Of a stretch of DNA of 64,000 nt, positions 7,159 to 48,156 are shown one piece after another. A program made the position numbers and the translations under genes. The stretch covers positions 1 to 64,000 of the forward strand of contig SPDT01000015.1 of assembly GCA_008477525.1 (NCBI GenBank), read 5' to 3'. Source of the DNA: Hypomyces perniciosus (taxonomy: Eukaryota > Ascomycota > Sordariomycetes > Hypocreales > Hypocreaceae). The stretch's first letter is position 1. The number at the start of each line of letters is the position of its first letter. The notes beneath the pieces are model-generated. The model saw nothing but the letters and a program-made list of their open reading frames with translations. It did not search any database and was not told the origin of the DNA.

Positions 7159-7424
7159 TGTTTGGTTAAGTAGGCTAGGGCCCTACCACTTATTAGCGCT
7201 AGGGAGCTTTTATTTGCTATATAAGCAGATATAAGCTAATATACACATTGCATAAGCGATATATTAGACTATACAGTCGCTTATAAAGCGCCTATATACA
7301 GCTTCTTCTTTATATTAGCTATATATATATATAGCAAGGCTATTATAGGATATTCTTTTTTATAGAATAAAGCTTTATTTCCTATCTCTCCATACTCTAT
7401 ATAGCTATACCGCGCTTTACTATA
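7159..7424 (+). repeat. CopA-1 5' LTR
   Basis: The LTR is 266 bp. It begins TGTTTGGTTAAGTAGG and ends CGCGCTTTACTATA, where less mutated copies end in CTACA. It keeps the family's hairpin series and the TATATATATATA run. It is the same length as the 3' LTR at 14028-14293. Confidence 0.9.
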
Positions 7425-7439
7425 GTAATAAGCCTAAAT
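7425..7439 (+). other. CopA-1 primer binding site
   Basis: The bases right after the LTR read GTAATAAGCCTAAAT. The better kept version beside CopA-4 reads GTTATAAGCCTAGG. This is complementary, apart from C-to-T changes, to the anticodon arm of fungal initiator tRNA-Met (GGGCTCATAAC), so the primer is probably a 5' half of that tRNA, as known for Copia elements. Confidence 0.6.
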
Positions 7440-7540
7440 AATAATTATTAAAGTTACTAAAAACTTCTATTTTAATATTATATCTCTCTTTATACCCTTT
7501 ACCCTCGCCTTTAAGCTATTAAAGCTATTTTCTATAATAG

Positions 7541-8800
7541 ATAGTATAAGGGATATTGCTTTTATAAAGCTAGAATTAATAGTCTAGTAGATTAAATAGA
7601 TTACTATTTTAATTAACTATATAACCACTACTAGGGTCTAGAATAGGATTAATCTTAATCTTTTTAATTAGCTAAACGACTATTTCCCTACTATTAGGCT
7701 ACTTACTTTAATAAAAGTAAAGGAGTATATAGTATAAAAGTTTAATTTAAATGCCTTTATAGTAAATATCTCTATTTATTATAATAGTATACTTTAAAGG
7801 CATTAGTTTAATATTATATTAAATAAAAGAAAAGGAAAGTTAATAATATAATCCTAAATTAGATTTAGAAAATAATTAACTTTAATATCTATATTTTAGT
7901 TTTAATAGACTTTAAAGCTGCAGCTTTAGCCTTTACTGCTATTAAAGCAGCCTATAATAATAATAAAGACTTTAACGTTAAATTTACTATTTATTAAATT
8001 ATTAAGAAGTTTAAAGACTAATTAACTCCTTATTAGGATATAATATATAAGGAAATATATTTATTTTATTAATATATACTATATAAAGCAGAGCGCGGGA
8101 ATATTAGGCTAAAAGTATAGTATACCTATTAAGCGTATATTTATATAAGTGTAGTAAAGTATAAGCTTTTAAAGGTTATAAGAAAAGCTTTTTAAATAGT
8201 TTTTTTTAAAGCTATTAAAGTATACTTTATTTTAAACTTCACTGCCTATTATTTATACCATATAGATAGCTTAATTAAAAATAGTAAAATAAATAAAATT
8301 TTATTTTTTAATTAAGTTAAATAGCTTTTTTAAAATACTTTAAAGAATATAGAGAATTATACTTATAGCTTTTATGCAATATTTAATAACTGCTTTAATA
8401 ATATATTAAGCAGTAATAATATATATTTAAAGCATCCTATTAATAAAGAGTGCCCTTATAGACCTAATAGGCATACTGAGCCTTTAAACGATTATAGTAA
8501 AGTATATACTGCGCTTACTAAAAGGCTTAATAAAAAAAGGAAATATACTTTTATACTTAAACAGGCTATAGAGATTTGCATATACTAATAAAAAACTAAA
8601 TAATAGGCTATCTGTAAAAAGCTTAGTAAAAGGGGTATTAACGTTACTGCCTTAATATAAAGAGGAATAGCTTTAACTATTATAGCTGCCTTAATCTCTT
8701 TAAGCTTAATCAATAAAAAAGATATAAGCCTTGCAGTATATTTAATAAGTGTATTAATATATATTAATATATAAAATATACTTTACTGCCTCTTTTAAAG
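7541..8800 (+). pseudogene. CopA-1 gag remnant
   Basis: A forward frame from about 7541 reads as gag with RIP stops. It probably began ATG-GAT, now ATA-GAT, followed by residues like SIRDIAFIKLELIV. It runs to a Lys- and Cys-containing stretch near 8440-8640 (around NKECPYRPNRH) just before the protease. Gag would form the particle that holds the element RNA. The start codon and many Trp and Gln codons are lost. The call rests on position between the primer site and protease and on parallel frames in CopA-2 and CopA-3. No convincing CCHC knuckle could be confirmed. Confidence 0.55.
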
Positions 8801-8807
8801 TATCCTT

Positions 8808-10000
8808 TTTAATACATATAATATTATTTATTTTATAAATAGCAGGAACTACTTTATTTCTAGCTCTTTTATCTTAAATATAGAAAAGGACTATATTAAA
8901 AGATAGTGCGCTTTATTAAGCTTTTAGATATAGCTATAGTTAAAGGATTTTATATTAATATTATATCTTTGTTAAAGTTTTGGAAAGTAAAGATTTGGCT
9001 AATAAGGTGTAATAATATACTTTACACCAGCATAGTTAATTTAAATATTATTATAAAGAAGGTAAAGTATAAGTATAATCTTTTATTTTTGTAATATAAG
9101 CCCTTATCGCTTTATATTGCCCCTATCCTTAAATATACTATATTAAACAGCTTTATAGGTCTTTTATTTTTTTTAATGTAAACGATAGTATCTATATAGT
9201 ATTAAAAAGTAGGAGAAGACTAATATATAATCCCCTAATATTATAATATAACTTTAAATAGCTTTAGCATTTACAATTAAGATATTTAGGCCTAGAAGCG
9301 CTTAAAGCGTTTATAAAGAATATAAGGAATATATATATTAAAAGAACTATATATATAGAATGTAAGGCTTATACTTTTATATACGCAAAACAGGTTATCT
9401 TTTACAGACTGTTAAATAAATAAATACTAACACTATTTTTTAAAGTATACTAAGATCTTTAAGACTATCTTAAAGGCTATAATAAAAATAATTAGCTTTT
9501 AATATTTAAAGAAAAATATACTGTATAGCTATATATACACCTTTTATTAAATAAAAAATAAAAAATTATTTTTAGTGCTTTTTTTACCTTTATAAGTATA
9601 GTAAAAATATAATATAATATTTCTATATACTTTTTTAAGCAGGATAATAAGAAAGCTGTAATTGCAGTTAAAAGCTTATTATATTTCTAGATCTAGGCTA
9701 ATATAAAAGGTATTATCCTAAACTTGCCTTTTCCTATATATATAAGCCGAATAGCGCTTTAAAATAAACAGGTTAGGAAGTTATAAATCAATTGATTAAG
9801 ATGCTAAAAGCTATAGGTTTTTCAACTGACTTATAGCCTAGAAGTATAAGAGCTATAGTGTATATTATTAATATAGGTCTTATATATAGCCTTAATATAA
9901 TATTATTTATTAATAAATTAAAGTAATAGTTCCGCGACTTTGCGCCCCTTTTAATAAAAGAGCCTTTTGTAGATTTATAGCTAGATTAAAGTGGGCTTTA
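8808..10000 (+). pseudogene. CopA-1 protease and integrase remnant
   Basis: At 8808 a frame reads FNTYNIIYFINSRNYF. This is the decayed form of a Copia protease site, D-T-G-A followed by hydrophobics and FINSR. A surviving open piece at 8906-9094 (IVKGFYINIISLLKFW and onward) matches the usual protease-to-integrase linker with its GFH-NI-S pattern. From about 9260 the pre-integrase zinc region follows (L-stop-HL-LR-LGLEAL, then ECKAY), and then the integrase core with FKVY-stop-DL near 9435. Integrase would join cDNA to the genome. Stops throughout and a 70-90 bp loss near 8895 make it dead. Confidence 0.75.
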
Positions 10001-13149: not shown

Positions 13150-13540
13150 AAGGGATAATAGTATAGCAGTAAAGGCAGTAGCAGTAGTAGAGGTAAAGGT
13201 AAAGGTAGCTGCGGGAGTAGCTGCAGTAAAAGTAACTATAAAAGTAGCTACTAGATCAGCAGTAGCAGTAATAGGGGCAGGGGCTAGAGTAAAAGCAGCA
13301 GCTGCTTTAACAGTAAGGCGCGCTTTATAAGCAGCTGCAATGGCAGCAGCACAGCGCGCGTTAAAAGCTGCAAAAGCCGCAGTATCCCTTAACTAGGCTA
13401 GATTAGCTGGCGCAGGAGTAGGAACTAGAGTAGGAGCTGGCGCAGGAGTAGAAGCTGGAGCAGGAGCCGGCGCAAGAGTAGGAGCAGTAATAGGCGTGGC
13501 TGTTTGGCTAGCCGAGCGACTAATGCTAGGATAAGCTACT
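13150..13540 (+). other. CopA Ala/Val/Gly-rich tail
   Basis: A low-complexity stretch is unusually GC-rich for this window. In the forward frame of position 13181 it reads alternating Val, Lys and Ala, then an Ala-rich segment (AAAMAAAQRALKAAKAA), then Gly-Ala-Val repeats. It is in the same frame number as the RNase H core at 12131, so it may be a C-terminal extension of pol. Equivalent tracts exist in CopA-2 (27410-27710), CopA-3 (35710-35990) and CopA-4 (36360-36660). Read backwards it gives Pro/Thr/Ala-rich open frames that are only shadows. Its function is unknown. Confidence 0.6.
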
Positions 13541-14017
13541 TTTAGGGGGCAACTACAACTACGCTTTACCGATAAAGTATTTTTCTTTTGCGATTTCGCT
13601 GTTAGCTAATAAATACACAGCGCAAAAGGAATTAGTTAAAAGTGTAAGATTTATAGCAGGAGCTATACTGCTATTACTGTTAATATTAATATTATTGTTA
13701 ATATTAATAATAATAATATTAATAACTGAAAAAGAAAAGCGAGGAATAAGGCTAAAGGGCAGTTAATATACCCATTCTAGCTGTTTAGGATTAATTTACT
13801 TACTTAGGAGCTTTATTATTTAACTTCCTATTATTATAAAATAATAATAGCTATAGCGTTTATATTCCTTTTACCTCTATAATAGAATATTAATATATAT
13901 TTATAATAAAGAGTTTCTAATTAAATAAAAGAGGCTTTAAGAGCGCGGCTAGTTAATTATAATACTATAGATAGGCTAAAGTAGCAGTTAATAAGGTATT
14001 GGGAATAGCTTTATTAA

Positions 14018-21460: not shown

Positions 21461-21726
21461 TGTTGGGTTAAGTAGGCCGGGGCCCTACCGCTTATTAGCG
21501 CTAGGGAGCTTGTATCTGCTATATAAGTAGATACAAGCTGACATATACGTCGCGTAAGCGATATGTCAGACTATACAGGCGCTTATAAAGCGCCTATACA
21601 CAGCTTCTTCTTTATGTTAACTATATATATATATAGCGAGGCCACTATAGTATATTCTCTTTTATAGAATTAAGCTTCGTTTCCTATCTCTCTATACTCT
21701 ATATAGCTATGCCTCGCTTTATTATA
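21461..21726 (+). repeat. CopA-2 5' LTR
   Basis: This 266-bp LTR begins TGTTGGGTTAAGTAGGCC. Four inverted repeats follow one another in its first half: 21483-21506, 21507-21539, 21538-21569 and 21578-21594. It ends CTTTATTATA and is followed by the primer site ATTATAAGCGTAGG. Confidence 0.9.
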
Positions 21727-24700
21727 ATTATAAGCGTAGGCAGTAACTCTAACTAAGTTACTAGAAACTTCTATTTAATATTATTTTTTCCTTTATACTT
21801 TTTCCATTATTGCCTTTTATGCTATAGAATTTATTTTTTATAATAGATAATATAGGAGATTTTTGTTTTATAAAGCTAAAATTACTAAGATAATAGATTA
21901 AATAAATAACTGTTTTTATAAATTATATAACTACTGCTAAAATATAAAAAAGGATTTATCTTAATCTCTTTAAAAAGCCTAGTAACTATTTCCTTACTCC
22001 TCTAGTATTTACTTTTACTTAAATAAAGAGGAAAGTAACTAAAGAATTTAAAAGGAGAGTCAAAGTTAATCAAATTACTGCCTATTAAAATAGTTTCCTT
22101 TAAAAGTATTAAAACGCTATTAATATAAATATAGAAAAGAGGAAGGTTAAAACTATAATTTAAAGGTAGATTTAAAAGGCTATTAACTTTAACTTTTATA
22201 ATTTAACTTTAACTAACTCTAAAGCTAAAAATCTATAGTTTACTACTATTAAAGTAGATAATAATAATAGTAATAAAGATAATATATAAACCTAGTTTTT
22301 TATTTGCTAGATTATTAAAAAGTTTAAAAACTGCCTCTCTTTTGCAAGGAAATAATTAAAAAAAAAGTATATATCTTTTATTAATAAATCCTGTATAATA
22401 TTATATATAGGAGTATAAAGCTAGAAGTATAGTATATAAATAAATAATGCGCCTATATATATACTGTTTAGTATAAGCTTCTTAAAACTATAAGAATATC
22501 TTTTTAAATAGCGTTTTTAAAAGCTATTAAAGCTTACTATACTTTAAGCTTTACTTTATATTATTTATATTATATAGATATATTAATTAAAAGCAGTAAG
22601 TTAAAAGAGATTTCTACTTTTAATTAATTTAGTTAACCTGTTTTAAATAATATAAAGAATATAGTAAATAATATTTAAAGCTTATATATAATACTTAAAA
22701 ACTGCTTTAATAATATAATAGTAAATAATAATATAGGTTTTAAGCTAGTAGTTAATAAAGACTATCTATATAATATAGAGAAGTATATTTAAGCGCTAAT
22801 AGAATATAATAAAGTATAAGCTACGTTTACTAGAAAGTTTAATAAGAAAGGAAAGTATAAGCTTTTTTAGGAGTAAGTTAATAAGATTTGCGTGCGCTTT
22901 TAAAAAGATAAATAGGCTACTTTACGCAAAAAGTTTATATAGAAAGGTATAGATTTATTTACCTTAAAGAAAAAGGCATTAACCTATACCTTTAAATAGC
23001 CTTAATTTCTTTAAACTTATTTAATAAAGAAAACCCTACTATATATTTAATAAATGTATTAATATATATAAATATAAGGGATAGACTTTATAAGTTCTTT
23101 TAAAGTATTTTCTTTAATACCTATAGTACTATTTATAAATAGCAAGAATTGCCTTATCCCTAACTCTTTTATTTTAAATATAGAAAATAACTATATTAAA
23201 GTAGGCGTAATTAAGTATTGAATTTTAAAGACAGGATATTATTTAATTCAGAATACTATCTATACCCTATTTAAAGGAATTATATATTTCATTAAGCTTA
23301 TAAATATTGCTATTATAAAAGGATTTTATATTAATATTATATTGGCTTTTAAGCTATATAAAGTAAAGGTTTAGTTAATAGGATATAATAATATACTTTA
23401 TATTAGTATAGTTAATTTAAGCATTATAGTGGCTAAAGTAAAGTATAGGTATAACCTTTTATTTCTTTAATATAAACCTTTATTTTTTTATACTGCTTTT
23501 ATATTTAAATGCTATATTTTAAGCAGCTTAGTAACTTTTTCTTTACTTTTAAATATATATAATAAAGTATATACTATAATAAAGAGAAGAAGATTAATAT
23601 ATAACCCTTTATTACTATACTTTAACTTAAAATACCTTTAGTATTTATAATCTAGGCATTTTAGGTTTATAGCGCTAAAGGCATTAATTAAAAACGCTAA
23701 GTATATAAAAATAAAAGGAATAAAGTATATAGACTATAAGTTTTACACTTTAATATATATATTATAGGTTATTTTATATACACTATTTAATAGATAAGTA
23801 TTAAAACCTTTCTTTACGGTTTACTAGATCTTTAATATTCTTTTTAAATTTATAAATATAATTAAGATATAATATAATATTTTTGTGTATTATATTAAAT
23901 AGGATAATAAAAAAGCTATAATAGCGATTAAAGGTTTAATGTACTATTAGCTTTAAGCGGATAAAGAAGGAATTATTTTTAAGCTTTCTTTTTCCTATAC
24001 TTATAAACTAAATAGCGCATTAAAGTATACAGGTTAAAAAGTAATAACTAAATTAATTAAAATATTTAATTATATTAATCTTTTAAATAACCTATTGCCT
24101 AAAAGCACTAAAGTAATAGTATATTTAATTAATATAAACCCTTTATTTATACTTCAAACAATATTACTAATTCATAAAATAAAGTAATAGTTTTATAATT
24201 TTACGCCTTTTATTATAAAGGAGCTTTCTATAGACCTATAGCCAGATTAAAATAAAATCTATACCTATAGCTGCTGCGCTTATATATTTAATACAGACTA
24301 TAAAGCTAACTAGAATAAAAAAGAATTTAAAACTAAGCTTAAAAGCTTAATTAAATACTTTATTAAATATACTGTAAATAATATATATTGCATTTAGTTA
24401 CTTTATTTAATAAAGGTAATTATTATAAAAAATTTATAGTTTAATAAAAATACCTTTTTTAATAGTAAAAAAGAGATTATAAATAAATTTATTATAGTTT
24501 AATGAAATAAACTATTTAAAAAGGTTAAAAGAAAGGAATTAGGGTTTATACTTTTTTTAATATATATTCTTATAGTAAAACATACCTTTTTAAGTAATAA
24601 AGAAATAAAGAGTTTACCTTTAAAAGTAAATAAGCTTTAAAGTATTAAAATTAATTTAATAACTGTTTAAGCTAAACTATTAATATATTTAAAAGTATCT

Positions 24701-29814: not shown

Positions 29815-29886
29815 CACCGCCTAGTTAATAAAGCTATTCCTAGTACTTACTTAACTGCTATTTTAATTTATTAATAATATTATAAT
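29815..29886 (-). other. CopA-5 internal 3' end with polypurine tract
   Basis: These 72 bases are the reverse complement of the last internal bases of CopA (compare 13960-14027): the decayed polypurine tract, then GCCTAGTTAATAAAGC and onward. They stop at 29886, where CopA-3 begins. Confidence 0.75.
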
Positions 29887-30164
29887 TGTTAGGTTAAGTA
29901 GGCCGGGGCCCTACCGCTTGTCAGCGCTAGGGCCAGCGCTGGGGAGCTCTTATCTGCTATATAAACAGATACAAGCTAACACACATATCGCATAAGCAAT
30001 ATATCAGACTATATAGGCGCTTATAAAGCGCCTGTATACAGCTTCTCCTTTATATTAGCTATATATATATATAATAAAGCTATTATAGTATATTTTCTTT
30101 TATAGAATTAAGCTTTATTTCTTATCTTTTTATATTTTATATAGCTATACTGCGCTCTGCTATA
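29887..30164 (+). repeat. CopA-3 5' LTR with internal duplication
   Basis: The LTR is 278 bp, 12 longer than the family norm. The extra length is a short duplication: the sequence around AGCGCTAGGG at 29924-29933 is repeated as AGCGCTGGGG at 29936-29945. It begins TGTTAGGTTAAGTAGG and ends CGCTCTGCTATA, followed by the primer site GTTATAAGCTTGAA. The five bases before it are ATAAT. Confidence 0.85.
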
Positions 30165-33100
30165 GTTATAAGCTTGAATAATAACTATTAAAGTTACTAA
30201 AAACTTTTATTTTAATATTATATCTCTCTTTATACCCTTTACTTTAACCTTTAAGCTGCTAATACTATCTTTTATAATAAATAGTATAAAGGATATTGCT
30301 TTTATAAAGCTAAAATTAATAGTTTAATAGATTAAATAGATTACTATTCTTATTAATTATATAACTACTATTAAAGTATAAAATAAAATTAATTTAAATC
30401 TCTTTAATTCACTAAATAATCGTTTCTTTATTTTTAAATTATTTACTTTAATAAAAGTAAAAACAAACTGCAGTTAAAATATTTAATTTTAACCCCTTTT
30501 TAGTAAATATCTTTATTTACTATAATAATATACTTTATAAGTATTAATTCTTTATTGCTAATAATAATAAAAAAAGAAGGTTAAAGTTTTTATTTTAAAC
30601 TAAATTTAAAAGATAGTTAACTTTAGTATTTATACTTTAATCCTAATAAACCTTTAAGCTGCAGCTTTAGCCTTTACTGCTATTAAAGTAGCCTATAATA
30701 ATAATAAAGATTTTAAGATAAAGTTTACTATTTGCTAAATTATTAAAAAGCTTAAAGATTAATTAGTTTTTTGTAAACATATAAGATATAAAAAAATATA
30801 TTTATCCTATTAATATATACTATATAAAGTAAAATATAGGAATATTAGGCTAAAAGAATAGTATCTTTATTAAGCGTATATTTATATAAGCGCAATAAAG
30901 TATAAGCTTTTTAAAGTTATAGGAATAGCTTTTTAAATACCTTTTTTTAAAGCTATTAAAGTATACTTTACTTTAAACTTTACTGCCTACTATTTATGTT
31001 ATATAAATAGCTTAATTAAAAGCAGTAAAATAAAAAATATCTTGTCTTTTAAGTAACTTAACAGGCTATTTTTAAATAATATAATGAATATAAAGAATTA
31101 TATTTATAGCTTTTATATCATATTTAATAACTGCTTAAATAATATATTAAATAATAGTAATATATACTTAAAGCCTTTTATTAATAAAGAGTGCCTTTAT
31201 AAACTTAAAAAGTATATATAGCCTGTAAATAACTGCAGTAAAATATATATTATATTTACGAGAAAGCTTAATAAAAAAGCGAAATATACTTTTATATTTA
31301 AATAAACTGCAGAGATTTATACGCGCCTATAAAAAGATAAATAGCAGGTTACCTATAAAAAGCTTAATAAAAGGGGTATTAACTTTACTGCCTTAATATA
31401 CAAAGGAATAGCTTTAACTATTATAGCTATTTTAATTTCCCTAGACTTAATTAATAAAGAAAACATAAGCTTTACAGTATATTTAATAAATATATTAATA
31501 TATATTAATATATAAAATACACTTTACTCCCTCTTTTAAAATAGATTTTTTAATATATATAGTATTATTTATTTTATAAATAATAGGAATTATTTTATTC
31601 CCTGCTCCTTTATCTTAAATATAAAAAAGGATTATATTAAAGTAAAAAGAGTTAGTTACTTTATAATTAAAAACGGATATTATTTATTAATGGATACTCT
31701 TTATAATCTATATTACAAAAAGGCGCGCTTTATTAAATCGATAGATATAGCTGTAGTTAAAGGATTCTATATTAATATTATATCTTTATTAAAGCTTTAG
31801 AAAGCAGGGATTTGGCTAATAGGATATAATAATATACTTTACATTAATACAGCCAATTTAAATACTATTATAAAGAAAGTAAAGTATAAGTATAATCTTT
31901 TATTTCTTTTAATATAAACCTTTATTGCTTTATATTGCCTTTATCTCTAAGTGTACTATATAAAGCAGTTTAATAGCTGTTTTTATACTCTTTAACGTAA
32001 ACTATAGCATTTATATAGCATTAAAAAGCAAAAACAAGTTAATATATAATCCTTTAATACTATAATATAACTTAAAATAGGTTGAATATTTATAATTAAA
32101 ATATTTAAGCTTAAAAGCGCTTAAAGCGCTTATAAGAAATATAAGGAATATATATATTAAAAGAATTATATATATAAATTATAAGGCGTATACGTTTATA
32201 AATATAAAATAAGTTATCTCTCGCAAACTATTTAATAGACAAGAGCGAAAACTATTCTTTAAAGTATACTAGGATCTTTAAAACTATTCTTAAGGCTATA
32301 ATAAAAATAACTAACTTTTAGTATTTAAAGAAAAATACACTATATAATGATATATATATCTTTTATTAAATAAAAAATAATTTTTTTAATACTTTATTTA
32401 ACTTTATAAATATAATAAAAATACAATACAATATTTCTATATACTTTTTTAAGCAGGATAATAAAGAAACTATAATTGCAGTTAAAAGCTTATTATACTT
32501 TTAGATCTAGGCTCATATAAATAGTATTATCTTAAAACTTGCCCTTTCCTATATATATAAACTTAACGGCGCTTTAAAATAGGCAGGTTAAGAAATTATA
32601 AACAAATTAATTAAAATACTAAAAGCTATAAATCTTTTAATTAATTTATAGCTAAAAAGTATAAAAGATACAGTATATATTATTAATATAAGTCTTATGC
32701 GCGCTTTTAATATAATATCACTTATTAATAAATTAAAGCAATAGTTCTATAACTTTATACCCCTTCTAATAAAAAGGCTTTCTGTAATTAAATTAAATAA
32801 ATTATTTAATAAAGTTAAAGAAAATAAACTAAAATTTAAACTTTTCTTTATATATATTCCTGTAATACAAAACACCTTTATAAGTAATATAGAAAAAAAA
32901 AGTATAGCTTTAAAGGTAATAAAAATATAGAGTATTAAAAATAGTTTAATAAATACTGTAAATAAACTATTAATATACTTAAAAAGACCTTTTAGTCTTT
33001 AAATATTAAAGGCTACTTTAAAATAGTTAATCTTTATGAATAATACTAGCGCATTAATAAAAACTTTAGGTAATACTTTAGCAAATAACCTACCCCTTTT

Positions 33101-36190: not shown

Positions 36191-39100
36191 GTTAATAATA
36201 TTAATAGTAATATAGCCCCTACTATAAATATTACGCTTTTAATTAATTCCTTTTACACTGCGTGTTTATTAGCTAATAGTAAAATCGCAAAAGAAGAATA
36301 CTTTATTAGTAAAGCGTAGTTATAGTTGCCCCTTAAAGGTAGCTTATCGCGGCGTTAATTGCTCGGCTGGCTAAGCGGCTACGCCTATTACTACTCTTGC
36401 GCCTACTCCTGCGCCAGCTCCTACTCCTGCGCCAGCTAGTCCCGGCCAGTCTAGGTATACTGCGGCTATTACTGCTCTTAACGTGCGCTTAGCTACTGTT
36501 TATAAAGCACGCTTCGCTATTAAGGCAGCTTTATCCTTATTTTTATCAGCTCCTCCTCCTACTACTACTATCCTAGCCCCTGCCTTTATTACTGCTGCTG
36601 CTACTCCTTTTACTACTCCTATTACTGCCCCTGCTACTATACTATTATCCCCTCTTTATAAAGGTTATCTAAAGTCAGCAATCGCTAGTAAAAAAGACTT
36701 CTTTTAATATATTTCTATCGCTTACTTTTAACAGTATACTATTTATTTTAATAGTAATTATTAATATACCCTTTAATAAACTCCTCTTTAACTTGCCTAT
36801 ATTACTTTATTTAATTATATACTTTATAGTTATTTAATATTTATATTAATTATATACTAGCTCTTTTAAGTTATAAATAAAGAGGATAATTAAGTAAATA
36901 TATTTTCTTTTTTTTATATACTTATAACCTTATATAATTAAATAGTAACCTAGTATAAAAAGGCATTATACCTTTAATTTAACCTATTAAAGGAGGAGAA
37001 TTTAATTTACTTTAAAAAGGCTATTACTTTAAGCAGCAGTAATAATAATAATAATGCCTTTTATATATAGGCGCGTAAGGGCTAGAAAGCTTTTAGAGAA
37101 TAGTTATTGCGGTAATAGGATATACTTTTATAGCTGGCCGCCTATAGGCTAGAATTAACTAGTTTCCTGTATTTTTATATATTTTATTCTAATAACTATA
37201 TATCTGCTAAGTTTAATAGTACTTTAAAGTGCTTAAAGCGCTATTATAGTAGGGCTTTAGTAAGCCTATTAGTAAATATAAAGTTAATAAAAAGATAGGA
37301 AACTGTAAATGATTTTTTTTAATATTTCTGCTAAAGCTATATATTTTATATATTAATATAATATAGGCAAGTATTAATTTATATACTCTCGTGAATTATA
37401 AAATATATAGTTAATTAATTATTATAATTAATATTTTAATTAGTGTTAAAGTTAAATTTTATTTTTTAAAAAAGGCAATATAAACTTATAGCCTTTTTTA
37501 TTATTTACGTAAAGGCAAGCAGTTTAGCTTTTATTATTAATATATTAATAGTACTTTAATATATTATATTCTATAAAATAAAGCTTAAGAAAAGCATAAT
37601 AAAATACCTTTAAAATAATCTTTAAATATTTATATTATTAGTAAAGGAAGTATTACTTAAAGCAGTTAAGACTTATATTTCTTTTTTCCCTTTATATTAA
37701 AGAGCTAGGAAACGCTATATATATAAATAATAGATTAGCTAGTTTACTACTTTAAAGTGCTTTTTATTAAAGTTAGTTAAAAACTGTAATAAAGCTAAGG
37801 CGCTATAAGCTATATTAGGCTTTATTATAATAGCTATATAAAGTATTAATTTTACTTTCTTTTAATATATTTTAATAGTTACTTTTAAAGTTTATAATAT
37901 ACTTTTCTAAAGCTTTATAATAAATATTAAAATTATAGGAAGCTATATTCCTTTATTAAGCCTAAATGGTTTTATAATTCTTTTAAAATAGGTTTTATAG
38001 GAAAGGTATATTTTATATTTTATATAGTTTTAAGTAATTTTAATCTTTAAGAATTACTGTATATCTTTTTTACTATAAACTTTATATTTCGCTTTTAGAG
38101 TATTTAGTAGTTTAATGTAAAGAGCTTTATTATTATAATAATATATAATTAAGATATTATTTATATAAAATATAATAAAGATCTTTTAAGCTTTATTATA
38201 AAAGAGATAAGGCTTTTTAGAGCTTAAGATTAACTTTTATTGCTTTAAGGTTAAAGATAGTTTATTAAACTATAGCTTTAATAAGTCCTTTAAGCTATAT
38301 AAGGCTTTCGCGAGCTTTAGATAGATATTTAGCTGCTTAAAACCTTTAAGAGTTTATATATAACTAGTTTTAAGTTTTTATCCTTTAAAGCATTAAGAAA
38401 AGTATTCTTAATATTATACTGCTTTAACTTAAGGTTAAATCTTATTGTAAAAGTAATAAGTATATAGAAAGAATATACTGTTAATATAGCTGTATATATA
38501 CTTTCTATAGTAAAGTGCTTTTATAAAGCCCTGCAGACTATAAAGTAAGCTTTATAGTATTTTAGATTTCTATTCTAGTTAAATTTATAAATAAAAACTT
38601 AATATACTAATAGTAACTTTATTATTGCCTTTAAATATAATATCTTTTATTAGGTTCCTTTTATATATAAAGAGTTAATTTTATTATATATAGTTTACTT
38701 AAATTTATTTTTAAGTAAGTGTTTTATAAGCTTTTTCTAGTCTTTTAGCGATTTCGCTAAATCCTTTTAGTAAATAGTTAATTTATTAAAAGTTATACTT
38801 TTCTAAAAGGAAGATTTTTAATTTATTACTGTATTAAAAATAATAAATACTATTTCTGCACGTTTTAATTTATTACTTATTAGCTTTTATTAATTAAGCA
38901 GCAGTTAATATAATATTAAACTAAAAAGCCTAGTAATTATGAAATATATATTAGGCTTATTATCCTTAAAAGCAGTATTTAAGGTATATATTTTAGTCCT
39001 ATATATTAAAAGATATTTATTAGCCTTTTTTACAGGTTATTTCCTTTAGAGTTTTAAGCTTTTATAAGTATTAGCTACTGCTTTGCCGCTTAAAGGATTA

Positions 39101-42100
39101 TTAGCTAGTATTTCCTTAAAGGTCTACTTTTCTTTTATAGAAGTAGGTAAGTCTTTTATATACTAGTCTACTTTTAGCTTTAATGGATTATCCTCTTTTA
39201 TTAGGTTATATACCTTTAATATATAAGGCTGTTCTTCTGCTATATCCCTTTTTATAAAGAGGGGTAAATTATTTGCTAAAGTATTACCCAGGGTTCCTAT
39301 TAGCGCGCTAGTATTATCTATAAAGATTAACTATTCTAAGGTAGCCTTTAATATTTAAAGACTAAAAGGTCCTTTTAAGTGCGCTAATAGTTTACTTAAA
39401 GTGTTTATTAAACTATCTTTAATACTCTATATCTCTATTACCTTTAAAGGTATACTCTTTTCTTTTATATTACTTATAAAGGTATTCTTTACTGTAGGAA
39501 TATATATAGGGAAAAGTTTAAATTCTAGCTTATTTTCTTTAACTTTATTAAACAGCTTATTTAACTTAACTATAAATAGCTTATCTGCAATCTCTTTATT
39601 ACTATTAAAAAAGCTAGTTTTATTAAATTATATATTTTTTATAATAATTACTTTTACTAGGCAAGGTAATTAAATGCGATATATATTATTTACAGTATAG
39701 CTAATAAAATATTTAATTAGCCCTTTAGGCTTAGTCTTAAATTCTCTCTTTTTCCAGCTAGCCTTGCAGTCTTTATTTAATATATAGGCGCAGCAGCTAT
39801 ATATATAGAGCCTGCTTTAGTCTGGCTATAGGTCTATAGAAAGCTCTTTTATTAGAAGGGGTATAAAGTCGCGGAACTATTGCTTTAATTTATTGATAAG
39901 TAATATTATATTAAAGCTATATATAGGACTTATATTAATAATATATACTGCAGCTTTTATGCTTTTAGGCTATAAGTCGGTTAAGAGACCTGCAGCTTCC
40001 CCCATTTTAATTAACTTATTTATAACTTCTTAACCTACCTATTTTAAAGCACTATTTGGCTTATATATATAGGAAAAGGCAAGCTTTAAGATAATACCCT
40101 TTATATTAGCCTAGATTTAAAAGTATAATAAGCTTTTAACTGCAATTATAGCTTTTTTATTATTTTGCCTAAAAAAGTATATAAAGATATTATATTACAT
40201 TTTTACTATATTTATAAAATTAAACAAAGCATTAAAAACAGTTTCCTATTCTTTATTTAATAAAGGGCGTATATATAACTATATAGTATATTCTTCTTTA
40301 AATACTAAAAGCTAGTTATCCTTATTATAGCCTTTAGTATAGTCTTAAAGATCTTAATGCACTTTAAAGAATAGTTTTAATATTTATCTATTAAATAATC
40401 TGCAAAAGATAACCTATTTCGCGTATATAAAAGTATAAGCCTTATATTCTATATATATAGTTCCTTTAATATATATTCCTTGCATTCTTTATAAGCGCTT
40501 TAAGCGCTTTTAGGCCTAGATGTTTTAATTATAGATGCCAGAGCTATTTAAAGTTATATTATAATATTAGGGGATTATATATTAATCTTCTCCTGCTTTT
40601 TAATGCTATATAAATACTATAGTCTGTATTAAAAAGAATGAAAAGAGCTATTAAACTGCTTAATATAATACACTTAAAGATAAAGGTAATATAAAGTAAT
40701 AAAGGCTTATATTAAAGAAATAAAGATTATACTTATACTCTATTTTCCCTATAATAGTGTTTAAACTGGCTATATTAGTGTAAAGTATATTATTATACCC
40801 TATTAACTAAATCCCTGCTTTCTAAAGCTTTAATAAAGATATAATATTAATATAAAATCCTTTAACTATAGCTATATTTAAAAGCTTAATAAAGTATATT
40901 ATCTTTTAATATAGATTATAAAGAGTATCCTTTAATAGACAATAACCTTTTTTAATTATTAGATAGCTAGCTCCTTTTACTTTAATATAATCCTCTTTTA
41001 TACTTAAGATAAAAGAGTTAAGAATAAAGTAGTTTTTGCTATTTATAAGATAAATAGTATTATATATATTAAAGAGGGTGCTTTAAGAGAAGCAGTAAAA
41101 TATATTTTATATATTAGTATATATTAATATACTTATTAAGTATACTGTAAGGCTTATATTTTTTTTATTAATTAAGTTTAAAGAGATTAAAGCAGCTATA
41201 ACAGTTAAAGCTATTTTTCCTTATATTAAAGCAGTAAGCTTAATACCCCTTTTACTAAACATTTTACAGGTAACCTACTATTTATCTTTTTATAGGCGCG
41301 CGCAAATCTTTATAGCCTGTTTAAGTATAAAAGTATATTTCCCTTTTTTATTAGGCCTTTTAATAAGTATAGTATATACTTTACTATAGTTATTTAAAGG
41401 CTAAGTATACCTTTTAGGTTTATAAAGGCACTTTTTATTAATTGGAGGCTTTAAATGTATATTACTACTGCTTAATATATTATTAAAGCAGTTACTAAAT
41501 ATTATATAAAAGCTATAAATATAGTTCTTTATATTCTTTAAAGTATTTAAAAAAGCGATTTAAATTAATTAAAAGAAAAGATTTTATTTATTTTACTACT
41601 TTTAATTAAGCTATTTATATAATATAAGTGGTTGGCAGTAAAGTTTAAAGTAAAGTATACTTTAATAGCTTTAAGGAAAGCTATTTAGGAAGCTGTTCTT
41701 ATAACCTTTAGAAGTTTATACTTTACTGCACTTACATAAATATACACCTAGTAAATATACTATACTTTTAGCTTAATATTCTCGCGCTTTACTTTATATA
41801 GTATATATTAATAGAATAAATGTATTTCCTTGTATCTTATATCCTCGCAAAAAGCTAGTTAATCTTTAAGCTTTTTAACAATTTAGCGAATAGTAAACTT
41901 AGCATTAAAATCCCTATTATTATTATAAGCTACTCTAGTAGTAGTAGAGGTTAAGGCTGCGGCTTTAAAGTCTATTAAGATTAAAGTATAAATGCCAGAA
42001 TTAACTGTTTTCTAGATTTAATGTAAAATCGCATTACTGGCCTGCCTCTTCTCTTTATTTAAGGTAATATTAAACTAGTGCTCTTAAAGTATACTATTAT

Positions 42101-42442
42101 AGTAAACAGAGATATTTACTATAGAGGCATTAAAACTAAACTGTTATACTATATACTCTTTTACTTCTGCTAAAGTAAATAGCTTAATAGCAGGGAAATA
42201 GTTATTTAGCTAATTAAAGAGATTAAGATTAATCCTATTCTAGACTTTAGCAGTAGTTATATAATTAGTCAGAACAGTAATCTATTTAATCCACTAAACT
42301 ATTAATTCCAGCTTTATAAAAGCAATATCCTTTATATTATTTATTATAAAAGATAGCTTTAGCAGCTTAAAGGCAAGGGTAAAGCGTATAAGGAAAAATA
42401 TAATATTAAAGTAGAAGTTTCTAGTAACTTTAATAGTTACTA

Positions 42443-42456
42443 CCTAGGCTTATAAC
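42443..42456 (-). other. CopA-4 primer binding site
   Basis: On the + strand these bases read CCTAGGCTTATAAC, directly beside the LTR end. This is the best preserved CopA primer site and resembles the anticodon arm of initiator tRNA-Met with the anticodon CAT changed to TAT. See the matching site of CopC at 51600-51618. Confidence 0.65.
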
Positions 42457-42719
42457 TGTAGCGGAGCGCGGTATAGCTATATAGAGTATAGAGAGATAGG
42501 AAATGAAGCTTGATTTTATAAAAGAGAATATACTGTAGTGGCCTCGCTATATATATATATAGCTAATATAAAGAAGAAGCTGTATATAGCGCTGTAAGCG
42601 TCTATACTGTTTGATATATCGCTTATGCGATATATATATTAGCTTATATCTGCTTTATAAACAGATAAGAGCTCCCTAGCGCTAACAAGCAGTAGGGCCC
42701 CGGCCTACTTAACCTAACA
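42457..42719 (-). repeat. CopA-4 5' LTR
   Basis: This reverse LTR of 263 bp is the copy that shows the true family ends. On the element strand it starts TGTTAGGTTAAGTAGGCC and ends GCGCTCCGCTACA, so the LTR has standard TG and CA termini. RIP has changed it little. Confidence 0.9.
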
Positions 42720-42789: not shown

Positions 42790-45700
42790 TAAAGTTAATT
42801 AAAAATTCTAATAAACTTAAAGGATTATATACTATATTAAGCTTTATTATAATGGCTTTATAAAATATAAATTTTACTTTCTTTTAATATATTTTAATAA
42901 TTGCTTTTAAAGTTTATAATATATTTTTCTATAACTTTATAATAGGTATTAAAATTATTAAAAGCCATATTCTTTTATTAAATTCAAATTGTATTATAAT
43001 TTTTTTAAATAGGTTTTATAGGAAAAGTATATTTTATACTTTATATTATTATAGGTAATTTTAATCTTTAAAAACTATTATATATTTCTTTTACTATAAA
43101 GTTTATACGTTACTTTTAAAGCATTTAATAGTTTAATATAAAAAACTTAATTATTGTAATAATATATAATTCAAATATTATTTATATAGAATATAATAAA
43201 GATTTTTTAAGCTTTATTATAAAAGGGATAAAGCTTTTTAAAGTTTAAAATTAACCTTTATTACTTTAAAGTTAAAGATAATTTATTAAACTATAGCTTT
43301 AATAAATCCTTTAGCCTATATAAAACTTTAGTAAGCTTTAAATAGATATTTAGTTATTTAAAACCTTTAAAGAGTTTATATATAATTAGTTTTGAGGTTT
43401 TATCTTTTAAAATATTAAAAAAGGTATTTTGATTATTGTATTACTTTAATTTAAAGTTAAATTTTATTATAAATATAATAAATATATAAAAGAAATATAC
43501 TATAAGTATAAGTATATATATACTTTTTATAGTAAAATACTTTTATAAGTCTTTATAGACTATAAAGTAAACTTTATAGCATTTTAGATTTTTATTTTAA
43601 GTAATTTATAAGTAAAAGCTTAATATACTTGTAATAGCTTTATTATCGCCTTTAAATCTTATATCTCTTTACTAGGTTCCTTTTATAGAAAGAATTAAGT
43701 TTATCATATATAATTTACTTAAATATATTTTTAATAAATATTTTATAAGCTTTTTTAATCTTTTAATAGTTTTATTATATCCTTTTAGTAATTAGTTAAT
43801 TTATTAAAAGCTATACTTTTATAGGAAAAAGATTTATAATCTATTCTTGTATTAAAAGCAGTAAATACTATTTTTATATTTTTTAAATTATAGTTCATTA
43901 ACTTTTATTAATTAAATAGCAGTTAATATAGTATTAAGTTAAAAAGTTTAGTAATTATTAAATATATACTAGGCTTATTATCTTTCAAAGTAATATTTTC
44001 AAGTATATATTTTAATTTTATATAGTAAAATATATTTATTAGCCTTTTTTATATATTATTTCCTTTTAAAGTTTTAACCTTATATAAATATTAACTATTA
44101 CTTTACTATTTAAAGGATTATTAGCTAATATTTCTTTAAACGTTTATTTTTTTTATAAAAATAAATAAATTTTTTATATGTTAGTTTACTTTTACCTTTA
44201 CTAAACTATTATTCTTTATTAAATTATATACTTTTAATATATAAAGTTATTTCTTTACTATATCCCTTTTTATAAAAAAAAGTAAATTATTTATAAAAGT
44301 ATTATTTAAAGATTTTATTAGCGCGCTAGTATTATTTATAGAGATTAACTGTTTTAGGGTAGCCTTTAATATTTAATAACTAAAAGATACTTTTAAGTCT
44401 ATTAAAAGTTTAGTTTAAGTAGTTATTATATTAATTTTAATACTTTAAAGTTTATTTACCTTTAAAGGTAAACTTTTTTTTTATTATTATTTAAAAAGGT
44501 ATTTTTTACTATAGGAATATATATTAAAAAGAGTATAAACTTTAATTCCTTTTCTTTAACGTCTTTAAATAGTTTATTTAATTAAACTATAGTAAACTTA
44601 TCTGTAATCTCCTTTTTACTATTAAAGAAAGTATTTTTATTAAATTATATATTCTTTATAATAATTACCTTTATTAAATAATATAATTAAATATAATATA
44701 TATTATTTATAGTATATTTAATAAAGTGTTTAATTAAGCTTTTAAGTTTAATTTTAAATTCTCTTTTATTTTAGCTAGTTTTATAGTTTTTATTAAATAT
44801 ATAGGTATAGTAGCTATAGGTATAAATCTTATTTTAATTTAGCTATAGGTTTATAAAAAGCTCCTTTATAGGAAAAGGCATAAAGTTATAGAATGATTAT
44901 TTTATTTTATTGATTAATAATATTATTTTAAATGTAAATAAAGGGCTTATATTAATAAAGTATACTGCTACTTTAATGCTTTTAAGCTATAAATTATTTA
45001 AAAGACTAGTATAATTAAATATTTTAATGAATTTATTTATTACTTTTTAACTTATATACTTCAATATATTATTTAACTTATAAATATAAAAAAGGGAAAG
45101 CTTAAGGATAATTCTATTTTTATCTCTTTAAAGCTACTAATATATTAAACTTTTAATTACTATTATAGCTTTTTTATTATTTTATTTAATATAATATATA
45201 AAGATATTATATTGCGTTTTAACTATACTTATAAAGTTAAAAAAAGTATTAACGATAATATTATATTTGTTATTTAATAAGGAGTATATATATAATTATA
45301 TAGTATATTTATTTTTAAATATTAACAGCTAGTTATTTTTATTATATCTTTATAAATAGTTTTAAAGATCCTAGTAAACCTTAAATAAAGGTTTAAATTA
45401 TTATCTATTTAATACTCTATATAAAATAACCTATAATATATATATTGAAGCATAAAATTTACAGTTTATATACTTAATTCCCTTTATCTTTATATTTTTA
45501 GTATTTTTAATTAATGGCTTTAATAGTTTAAAGCGAAAATGCCTAAATCTTAAATATTAAAGGTATTTTAAGTTAAAGTATAGTAGTAGGGGGTTATATA
45601 TTAGTTTTCTTTTCTTATTGTAATATATATTTTATTATATATATTTAAAAGTAGGAAAAGAGTTATTAAGCTATTTAAAATATAATATTTAAATATAGGA

Positions 45701-47127
45701 GTAGTGTAAAGAGATAGAGGTTTATATAAAACAAATAAAAGGTTATATTTATACTTTACTTTAGCTATTATAATGCTTAAATTAACTGTACTAATATAAA
45801 GTATATTATTATATCCTATTAATTAAGTTTAGCTTTATAAAGCTTTAAATCTAATATAATATTAATATAAAATCGTTTCATAAAAGTAATATTAATAAGT
45901 TTAATAAAGTATATAATTCTTTTAAATAAAGTATAGAAAATATTTTTAATTAAGTAATATCCTTTCTTTAAAATTTAGTATTTAATTGCACCTACTTTAA
46001 TATAATTATATTTTATATTTACAATAAACGAGCTAGGGATAAAGTAATTCCTGCTATTTAACAAGTAAATAGTACTGTAAGTATGAAAGAGACTACTTTC
46101 AAAGAGTCTATAAAGTATATTCCTTACATTTATATATATTAATACACTTATTAAATATATAGTAAAGTTCTTTTTCTCTACAATAAATAAATCTAGGGAA
46201 ATTAATACTGCTTAAAGGTATAGGCTAATAGCTCGTTTTTCTAAAGTAAATAAATCTATACTGTTCAATATAAACTTCTCACGTAAAGTAGGCTATTTAT
46301 CTTCTTAAAAGCGCGCGCGAATTTTATTAATTTACTTAAAAAAAAGCTTATACTTTCCTTTTTTATTACAACCTTTAATAAACGCAGCTTATACTTTACT
46401 ATATTCTATTAGCGCTTAGGTATATATCTTTAAGCTATATAGATAATTTTTACTAGCTAATAGCTTAAAGCCTATATTATTATTTAATATTATATTATTA
46501 AAGCAGTTTCTAAGTATTATATATAAACTTTAAATATTATTTACTATATTCTTTATACTATTTAAAAAGAGTTGGCTAAATTAATTAAAAGTAAAAATCT
46601 TTTTTAATTTACTGCTTTCTATTAATATATTTATATTATATAAATAATATAAAATAAAGTTTAAAATATAGTAAACTTTAATAGCTTTTAAAAATCCTAT
46701 TTAAAAAGATATTTTTATAATTTTAAAAAGTTTATATTAAATAGTATATATATAAGCGCGCGATTAATTTATATACTATACTTCTAGCTTTATACTCCTA
46801 TATATAGCATTATGCAGGATTTATTAACAAACGATATATACTTCTTTTTTAATTATCTCTTTATAAAAAGAAAAGCAGTTCCTCAGTTTCTTAACAATCT
46901 AGTAAATAAAGAATTAAGTTTATATATTATTTTTGTTATTATTATTATTATCTGCGTTAATAGCAGTAAACCATAGACTTTTAGCTTTAAAGTTAATTAA
47001 AGTTAAGTTATAGAAGTTAAAGTTAATAGTTTTTTAAATCTACCTTTAAATTACAGTTTTAACCTTCCTTTTCTCTATATTCGCGTTAATAGTATTTTAA
47101 TACTCTTATAATAAACTATTATAGCAG
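42790..47127 (-). pseudogene. CopA-5 gag-pol remnant (downstream part)
   Basis: On the - strand this holds CopA pol from RT back to gag. It starts at a point matching CopA-1 position 12030 and CopA-4 position 37769. The RT site at 43188-43177 reads Tyr-Ile-Asn-Asn. Further right are the integrase linker and protease regions (about 45000-46100) and gag (from about 46200), each parallel to CopA-2. All frames are broken. RNase H and the Ala-rich tail, which should lie to the left, are missing. Confidence 0.75.
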
Positions 47128-47533
47128 TTTGTCGGGGGTAACTGACATGCCCAACGCACCAGCATTTTTTCTTGTTAGCTTACCCGAGAAAGGTTGGCTG
47201 CTTATTTAAGCAGCTACTGGATTAGGAAAGCACGGGAGTATAAAGACATACAGATAGACCTAGTTTAATAAACAATAACCTTCTTCCCCCTTCAACACAT
47301 AACCCCACCTGTGAGAACACAGTCGCTGAGGCGTATGAAGGTAACCGTTGGTTGCTTTTGGCTGCCGGCATCATGATCAAATGATCCGCAGTATCTTTTT
47401 AGCCCCTATATTACTCAATCGCCGCTTCGTGGTTCTGTCAGGAGCGCGGGAACCGCGCTCCATACCAGTCGTTGTGTGTGGGTGTGTGTGTGTGTTGTGT
47501 GTGTGTTTTGGAGTGCCAATTCCCCCTCGACAA
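47128..47533. mobile_element. Unmutated short insertion, solo LTR or MITE-like
   Basis: About 406 bp of balanced base composition with intact CpG and CpA steps sits in the gag region of CopA-5. It begins TTTGTCGGGGGTAACTGAC and ends TTCCCCCTCGACAA, giving near-perfect inverted ends TTGTCG(A)GGGGG. The target duplication is AGCAG (47123-47127 and 47534-47538). The uninterrupted site in CopA-2 (AATAGGCAGTAA, reversed) fits once RIP changes are allowed. Inside are a TATAAAG at about 47241, an AATAAAC at about 47266 and a GT-rich run at about 47472-47512. TG and CA near the ends suggest a solo Gypsy-type LTR. Two extra bases on the left and one on the right of the TG-CA frame leave a small transposon possible. 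I saw no coding capacity. Confidence 0.7.
47472..47512. repeat. GT-rich microsatellite
   Basis: Tracts of GT and TGTG broken by single changes lie inside the short insertion. The absence of RIP decay here matches the rest of that insertion. Confidence 0.85.
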
Positions 47534-47892
47534 AGCAGGCAGTAATTTTATTAGCTTTAGCTCTTTCTTTAAATTCTTTAATTGCTTTCCTTTTTATTTA
47601 CGTAAAAGTAAACAGTAAAAGAGCAGGGAAATAATTATTAGGCTTTTTAAGGAAATTAAAATTAATCCTTTTCTATACTCTAATAATAATTATATAGTTT
47701 ATAAGAACAGTTATCTATTTAATTTACTGCTTTAGTAATTCTAGCTTTATAAAAGGTAAATCTTTTATATTATTTATTATAGGAAATAGATTTTATAGCG
47801 CAAGAGATAATAATAAAAAAGCTATAAGGGAAAAATAATATTAAGTAGAAGTTTCCAGTAACTTAATTAAACTTATTACCTAAGCTTATAAC
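47534..47892 (-). pseudogene. CopA-5 gag start and leader
   Basis: This continues CopA-5 after the short insertion and corresponds to the first part of gag and the leader of CopA-2 (21740-22070 reversed). It joins 47127 without loss once one AGCAG is removed. The primer site next to the LTR is present as CCTAAGCTTATAAC at 47879-47892. Confidence 0.7.
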
Positions 47893-48156
47893 TATAATAG
47901 AGCGCGGTATAGCTATATAGAATATAAAGAGATAGGAAATAAAGCTTAATTCTATAAAAAAGAATATACTATAGTGGCCTTACTATATATATATATAGCT
48001 AATATAAAGAAAAAGCTGTATATATGCGCTATAAGTGTCTATATAGTCTAATATATCACTTACGCGATATATATATCAGCTTGTATCTGCTTTGTAAGCA
48101 GATAAAAGCTCCCTAGCGCTAACAAGCGGTAGGGCCCCGGCCTACTTAACCTACTA
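47893..48156 (-). repeat. CopA-5 5' LTR
   Basis: This reverse CopA LTR of 264 bp has its plus-strand left end at TATAATAGAGCGCGG and its right end at CTTAACCTACTA. AGTAT follows (48157-48161), matching the duplication before 29551. Confidence 0.85.

Follow-up and report, generated by a model that had tools for sequence, protein, structure and literature searches.

A nearly RIP-free 407-bp insert in RIP-mutated DNA of Hypomyces perniciosus: a probable solo LTR of a Ty3/gypsy-type retrotransposon

Introduction

In a window of 64,000 nucleotides of Hypomyces perniciosus DNA (contig SPDT01000015.1, positions 1 to 64,000), which is the whole stretch analysed here, a RIP-mutated repeat at 45628..48151 (its left limit being the start of the query) is interrupted by a short, nearly unmutated sequence. 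What is this insert, and how did it stay clean inside DNA that did not? The analysis points with high confidence to a solo LTR, left by a Ty3/gypsy-type retrotransposon of 12.1 kb; it would have formed before RIP and lies near the length limit of RIP. Unmutated islands within RIP-mutated DNA are accordingly not necessarily genes or active transposons.

Limits, ends and composition of the insert

The insert occupies 47128..47534 and is 407 bp long, its final base being 47534; the preliminary description had stopped one base short, at 406 bp and position 47533. It runs from TTTGTCGGGGG to CCCCCTCGACAAA and is read as a solo LTR of Ty3/gypsy type from its matches in the genome and its presence as a direct repeat in 12.1-kb elements. 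The + strand is the sense strand of the window LTR, since RNase H precedes integrase in that direction. The 5′ terminal inverted motif TTTGTCGGGGG (47128..47138, +) includes TGTCG, which fits the gypsy end pattern TGTNR given in an excerpt of PMC2836005 but is offset by two T, and the 3′ terminal inverted motif CCCCCTCGACAAA is located at 47522..47534 (+). The inverted ends reported earlier are present, and are read here as TTTGTCG(A)GGGGG. By motif, TATAAA at 47239..47244 (+) is a possible LTR promoter box and AATAAA at 47267..47272 (+) a possible poly(A) signal. Two internal inverted repeats were found, GGAGCGCGGGAACCGCGCTCC with 9-bp arms (47441..47461, +) and GCTGCTTATTTAAGCAGC with 7-bp arms (47197..47214, +). 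An Rfam scan of the whole window gave no matches at gathering thresholds.

The GC content of the insert is 0.48 versus 0.209 in the 64-kb window, and the observed/expected ratios are 1.17 versus 0.33 for CpA and 1.26 versus 0.32 for TpG, in agreement with the normal base composition first ascribed to it. Intact CpG had also been named as a distinguishing mark; here there is little difference between insert and window (0.77 versus 0.72), and it is CpA and TpG that separate them. The claim that no other stretch of the window has a normal composition holds for GC and dinucleotides jointly and fails for GC alone, given 13151-13550 (GC 0.50, TA/AT 3.62) and 36301-36700 (GC 0.455, TA/AT 2.67). With slightly wider limits (13151-13650 and 36251-36700) these two stretches have a GC content of 0.45-0.50 and TA/AT ratios of 2.6-3.6, and by TA/AT both look RIP-mutated.

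Target-site duplication and shifted LTR ends

The insert is flanked by GCAG on the left (47124..47127) and on the right (47535..47538). An exact 4-bp duplication was found in 27 of 30 aligned solo LTRs from the genome, versus 200 of 2000 random pairings of left and right flanks from different loci. All 30 solos start with TTT and finish with AAA (TTTG in 28, CAAA in 29). The A counted as the fifth base of an AGCAG duplication in the preliminary description therefore belongs to the element, and the duplication is reduced to the 4-bp GCAG. TG and CA had been placed two and one bases inside the duplication, respectively; the distance at the TG end stands, and the CA end is also two bases in. Since TT and AA intervene, the LTR does not start with TG and finish with CA exactly at the duplication. 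LTR elements with other terminal bases exist, however, as stated in an excerpt of PMC5659011, and TTTG...CAAA is therefore regarded as a variant pair of ends that leaves the Ty3/gypsy membership intact. The duplications are within the 4-6 bp of Ty3/gypsy elements in the same 27 of 30 solos and in eight of the nine full-length copies described below.

TA is at the centre of the duplication in 26 of the 30 copies, and in 23 of the 27 whose duplication is exact; the window TA frequency, by arithmetic from the window composition, is about one dinucleotide in five. The GCAG of the window copy is one of the four exceptions. These mostly identical, TA-centred duplications suggest insertion into DNA already made TA-rich. 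The proposed arrival of the insert after its host copy had been mutated is thus plausible for the family; the window copy, sitting on GCAG, lends it no such support, and arrival after RIP of the host copy cannot be inferred from the absence of RIP alone. Retroviral integrases trim two bases, and the integrase of this element may likewise trim two, from ends two bases longer than TG...CA. With its LTR ends shifted by two bases, the element offers a variation on integrase end processing that can be tested.

The host repeat and its empty site

Five copies of the host repeat are present in the window in both orientations (7164-8900, 21466-23569, 29882-31995, 40627-42716 and 45628-48151), and the other four are 72-84% identical to the interrupted copy at 45628-48151. 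The paralogue at 21466..23569 on the - strand (84% identical, alignment of 2119 columns) has an uninterrupted, empty site, as it aligns straight across the insertion point from 23569 to 21466. The three further window copies also span the insertion point, where their joint is poorly aligned. Elsewhere in the genome three more solo LTRs (L011, L017 and L025) are located inside copies of this host repeat, a placement that is perhaps due only to its abundance and TA-richness. Two other solos, L004 (G000:C8:1557827) and L018 (G000:C8:1594280), sit within pol of other gypsy elements, and the pol on both sides of each is 42-58% identical to that of the intact gypsy family treated below.

Copies in the genome and the full-length element

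The genome is placed in the Hypocreales by RPA2, whose best named matches, 90-91% identical, are to Trichoderma, Drechmeria and Metarhizium. When the best 40 of 338 candidate matches to the insert were scored, they were 93-100% identical to it, the window copy included, and 39 of the 40 covered the full 406-base query. Both exact ends at the spacing of the insert occur 56 times in the genome (control 0). The search of the assembly for other copies, as advised in the preliminary description, also yielded at least 185 LTR-length copies with a RIP-tolerant pattern (control 0), a lower bound because the pattern demands an intact TAACT. Among the 168 of these 185 matches that were listed, 117 LTRs are unpaired and 51 were assigned to full-length copies. 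The length of the solos is nearly constant among copies.

Unpaired exact ends were often spaced about 12.1 kb apart, and in all nine elements examined (E1-E9) the 407-bp sequence was found direct-oriented at both ends. Eight of the elements are 12.06-12.14 kb long and one, with additional internal sequence, is 19.1 kb; fungal gypsy elements are usually shorter than 12.1 kb. A longer element with the insert at both ends had been named beforehand as the sign of a solo LTR, and these nine provide it. The MITE-like family offered as the other option is not borne out: a MITE is a short non-autonomous element that has nothing but its terminal inverted repeats in common with its mover, and here the full 407 bp is the LTR of the 12.1-kb elements. 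The 4-bp flanks match in eight of the nine full-length copies; those of E1 (G000:C8:2221296-2233403), CTAG/ATAT, are the only unmatched ones, and E1 is perhaps an ectopic recombinant.

The nine full-length copies are RIP-mutated, with a GC content of 0.20-0.28 across the element. One copy has RNase H (E 1.2e-05) upstream of Integrase_H2C2 (E 4e-04), both under the curated cut-offs, and another has two RNase H matches, one of them above the Pfam cut-off. The best protein relative of a read-through pol stretch is 1270 aa long (E 1.2e-114) and carries RT, RNase H and integrase zinc domains. Genome scans with RVT_1 (150 of 221 candidates scored) and rve (31 of 31 candidates scored) gave no match in E1-E8, and the class assignment therefore rests on RNase H, Integrase_H2C2 and the protein relatives. 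RT/RNase H is placed upstream of integrase by the RNase H and Integrase_H2C2 matches together with the protein relative, and RNase H followed by integrase is, as judged from domain matches, the Ty3/gypsy order. Two bases past the 5′ LTR is a TGG in two of the nine copies, a TAG in six and a TAA in one, the pattern expected from RIP of TGG; a guessed tRNA acceptor/T-stem pattern for the primer gave no matches in a search for the tRNA gene. A purine run precedes the 3′ LTR, and reads AGGGAGGG in five of the nine full-length copies.

RIP load of solo LTRs and of LTRs in full-length copies

RIP-type changes were counted relative to an actual solo, L002, by which measure the window copy has 2. The mean number per LTR was 6.7 (0-15) in 29 solos versus 46.8 (27-72) in 12 LTRs from full-length copies of the same subfamily (p 6e-7); over all 18 LTRs of full-length copies, including the six of E3, E4 and E9 that were set apart as other subfamilies, it was 55.3. 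Transversions are not produced by RIP, and averaged 0.66 per LTR in solos and 0.33 in the same-subfamily LTRs of full-length copies (p 0.54); because they do not differ, age does not appear to be the cause of the gap in RIP load, the counts being small. The share of changed CpA sites was 8.4% in solos versus 51% in the LTRs of full-length copies. Changes at CpA, the RIP context, made up 153 of the 194 RIP-type changes in solos, so that the solos have been spared rather than immune. Because the 30 solos are those that best matched a clean query, the sample favours clean copies; in the wider listing 17 of the 117 unpaired LTRs had at least six of ten sites changed. With this bias towards clean solos and with few transversions, the solos bear less RIP than the same sequence of equal age in long repeats. 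The earlier suggestion that the insert is too short for RIP gains support from this same-subfamily comparison (46.8 versus 6.7).

Mutation falls towards the outer ends of the full-length copies. Along the nine 5′ LTRs, 8-11% of C/G sites were changed in the first hundred bases, which are at the outer edge, and 42% at 351-400; along the nine 3′ LTRs the share went from 53% (1-50) down to 14-18% (301-400), the intervening bins being irregular. The gradient is inflated at the outermost bases, because the nine copies were chosen by their exact outer ends. No monotonic course was seen for CpA sites outside the selected ends: positions 113-204 were highest in every group, and in the 5′ LTRs only the outermost stretch was clearly spared. 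In the wider listing, of ten diagnostic sites near the LTR start an average of 2.08 were changed in 25 5′ LTRs, where these sites are outer, and 5.77 in 26 3′ LTRs, where they are inner; the 117 unpaired LTRs averaged 2.58, no different from the outer ones (p 0.64).

Origin of the insert

Movement as a MITE or other short cut-and-paste TIR element driven by a transposase, for example of Ginger type, would account for inverted ends, a 4-bp and mostly TA-centred duplication and a nearly constant length, and an excerpt of PMC2836005 gives TGTNR ends, 4-bp duplications and AT-rich targets for Ginger2. It is nevertheless very improbable, as the whole 407 bp is direct-oriented at both ends of nine out of nine 12.1-kb elements, the interiors of which show RNase H and integrase domains. 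Less improbable, though still unlikely, is a solo LTR that is clean solely through being younger than the last RIP episode, its length being irrelevant. Unmutated long repeats do exist in this genome, in the form of the unrelated intact gypsy family (19 copies, the 10 fetched being near-identical). The full-length copies of the present family, however, match the low transversions of the solos and yet have seven times their RIP-type changes, and all 26 of the scored pol places of the family contain stops.

The insert could also derive from recombination between two LTRs already mutated by RIP, with retention of their lightly mutated outer parts. The outer parts are less mutated than the inner ones, and a crossover would unite them. 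When all crossover points were considered in nine mutated elements, at best 22-53 RIP-type changes were left, whereas none of the 29 solos had more than 15. As the crossover minimum of 22 exceeds the solo maximum of 15, the measured solos are not from such mutated LTR pairs, and arose before heavy RIP or escaped RIP altogether. In the 17 solos with at least five changes, the density of CpA changes was only slightly higher in the middle half (68/476) than outside it (65/595), which also speaks against this origin. More mutated solos could arise in this way, the measured ones being biased to clean copies; for the insert we consider it improbable.

Integration of the element makes the 4-bp duplication, which is usually TA-centred. 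In the favoured reading, a solo LTR formed before RIP, integrase would have joined ends that extend two bases beyond TG...CA. The two LTRs would then have recombined, with loss of the interior, to leave one LTR between the original duplications, and this recombination would have preceded RIP of that copy. At 407 bp, about the shortest length for RIP, the solo could have stayed nearly clean, while RIP mutated the greater part of each full-length copy and affected the outer edges less. According to excerpts of PMC3562529 and PMC4522978, RIP works above about 400 bp, and repeats of less than 400 nt often escape it according to an excerpt of PMC10823647. The insert is at, not clearly below, this limit, which comes from other fungi.

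A further proposal, which we put forward tentatively and somewhat doubt, is that RIP in this fungus reads homology poorly over roughly the outermost hundred bases of a shared tract, so that mutation density declines towards repeat ends, and that a TA-preferring integrase favours the TA-rich DNA made by RIP. If so, a repeat consisting mostly of edge zone, such as a 407-bp solo LTR, would be nearly RIP-proof, and RIP would create a safe landing ground for a TA-preferring element.

Activity of the family and an intact gypsy family

The genome was searched for pol with the protein of the relative, P0001, and 37 of 202 candidates were scored; the 55 listed rows include another, intact gypsy family. 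All 26 scored pol places of the present family contain stops. Five of these lie inside E2, E5, E6, E7 and E8, and the other 21 were assigned to the family on the basis of similarity and, in part, of where the LTRs lie. As the scored places carry stops and intact copies should score highest, no live source is seen in this assembly, and the idea that the family may still be moving finds no support among the candidates scored.

The different Ty3/gypsy family was found at 19 places with unbroken pol frames (18 of 1254 aa and one of 1147), in a genome that is heavily mutated by RIP. Ten places were fetched (L051-L060), and their first 2876 sense bases are identical to those of L051, except that L056, L057 and L058 each show a single difference. 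Either this family represents a very recent burst, or RIP is inactive now in the lineage; with 19 intact copies of this family, RIP may not act now. In addition, four RVT_1 matches of equal score (G000:C8:21738, C17:21715, C17:102689 and C17:135277) have four TGA each as their only stops, and may represent DNA that uses the mitochondrial code, or copies derived from it.

Comparison with known systems

In titles and abstract openings from a partial coverage of the literature, no fungal TTTG...CAAA LTRs or RIP-escaping solo LTRs are named, and the part of PMC9910759 consulted has nothing on either. Short repeats under the RIP limit, such as the MITEs in excerpts of PMC4522978, PMC10823647 and PMC4994206, resemble the insert in having little or no RIP on account of their length; here, in contrast, the same sequence can be compared in long copies, where it is mutated, and alone, where it is spared. 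Ginger1 and Ginger2, as described in part of PMC2836005, share gypsy-like ends and 4-bp duplications with the present family, and Ginger2 an AT-rich target, but these have terminal inverted repeats and move as DNA, whereas direct LTRs and an RNase H region are found here. An LTR family of M. graminicola, compared by its description in an excerpt of PMC4522978, is likewise fungal, with a 4-bp target-site duplication, two solo LTRs and a RIP-active host; it has 515-bp LTRs, the duplication ACTT and a length of 5.5 kb, with one complete copy and minimal RIP.

The closest likeness is to Ty3/gypsy elements in general, in the direct LTRs, RNase H followed by integrase, the TGTCG/TGTNR end, the short target-site duplication, and the candidate primer site and purine run adjoining the LTRs. 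The family differs from them in its TTTG...CAAA ends, two bases beyond TG...CA, and in its mostly TA-centred 4-bp target. One genome offers the 407-bp sequence both alone and inside 12-kb repeats, so that the effects of homology length and of distance from the repeat edge on RIP can be measured with no need for transgenes. Solo LTRs of Ty3/gypsy elements are already known as a class, and what is specific to the present case is the shifted ends, the mostly TA-centred target and the paired RIP comparison.
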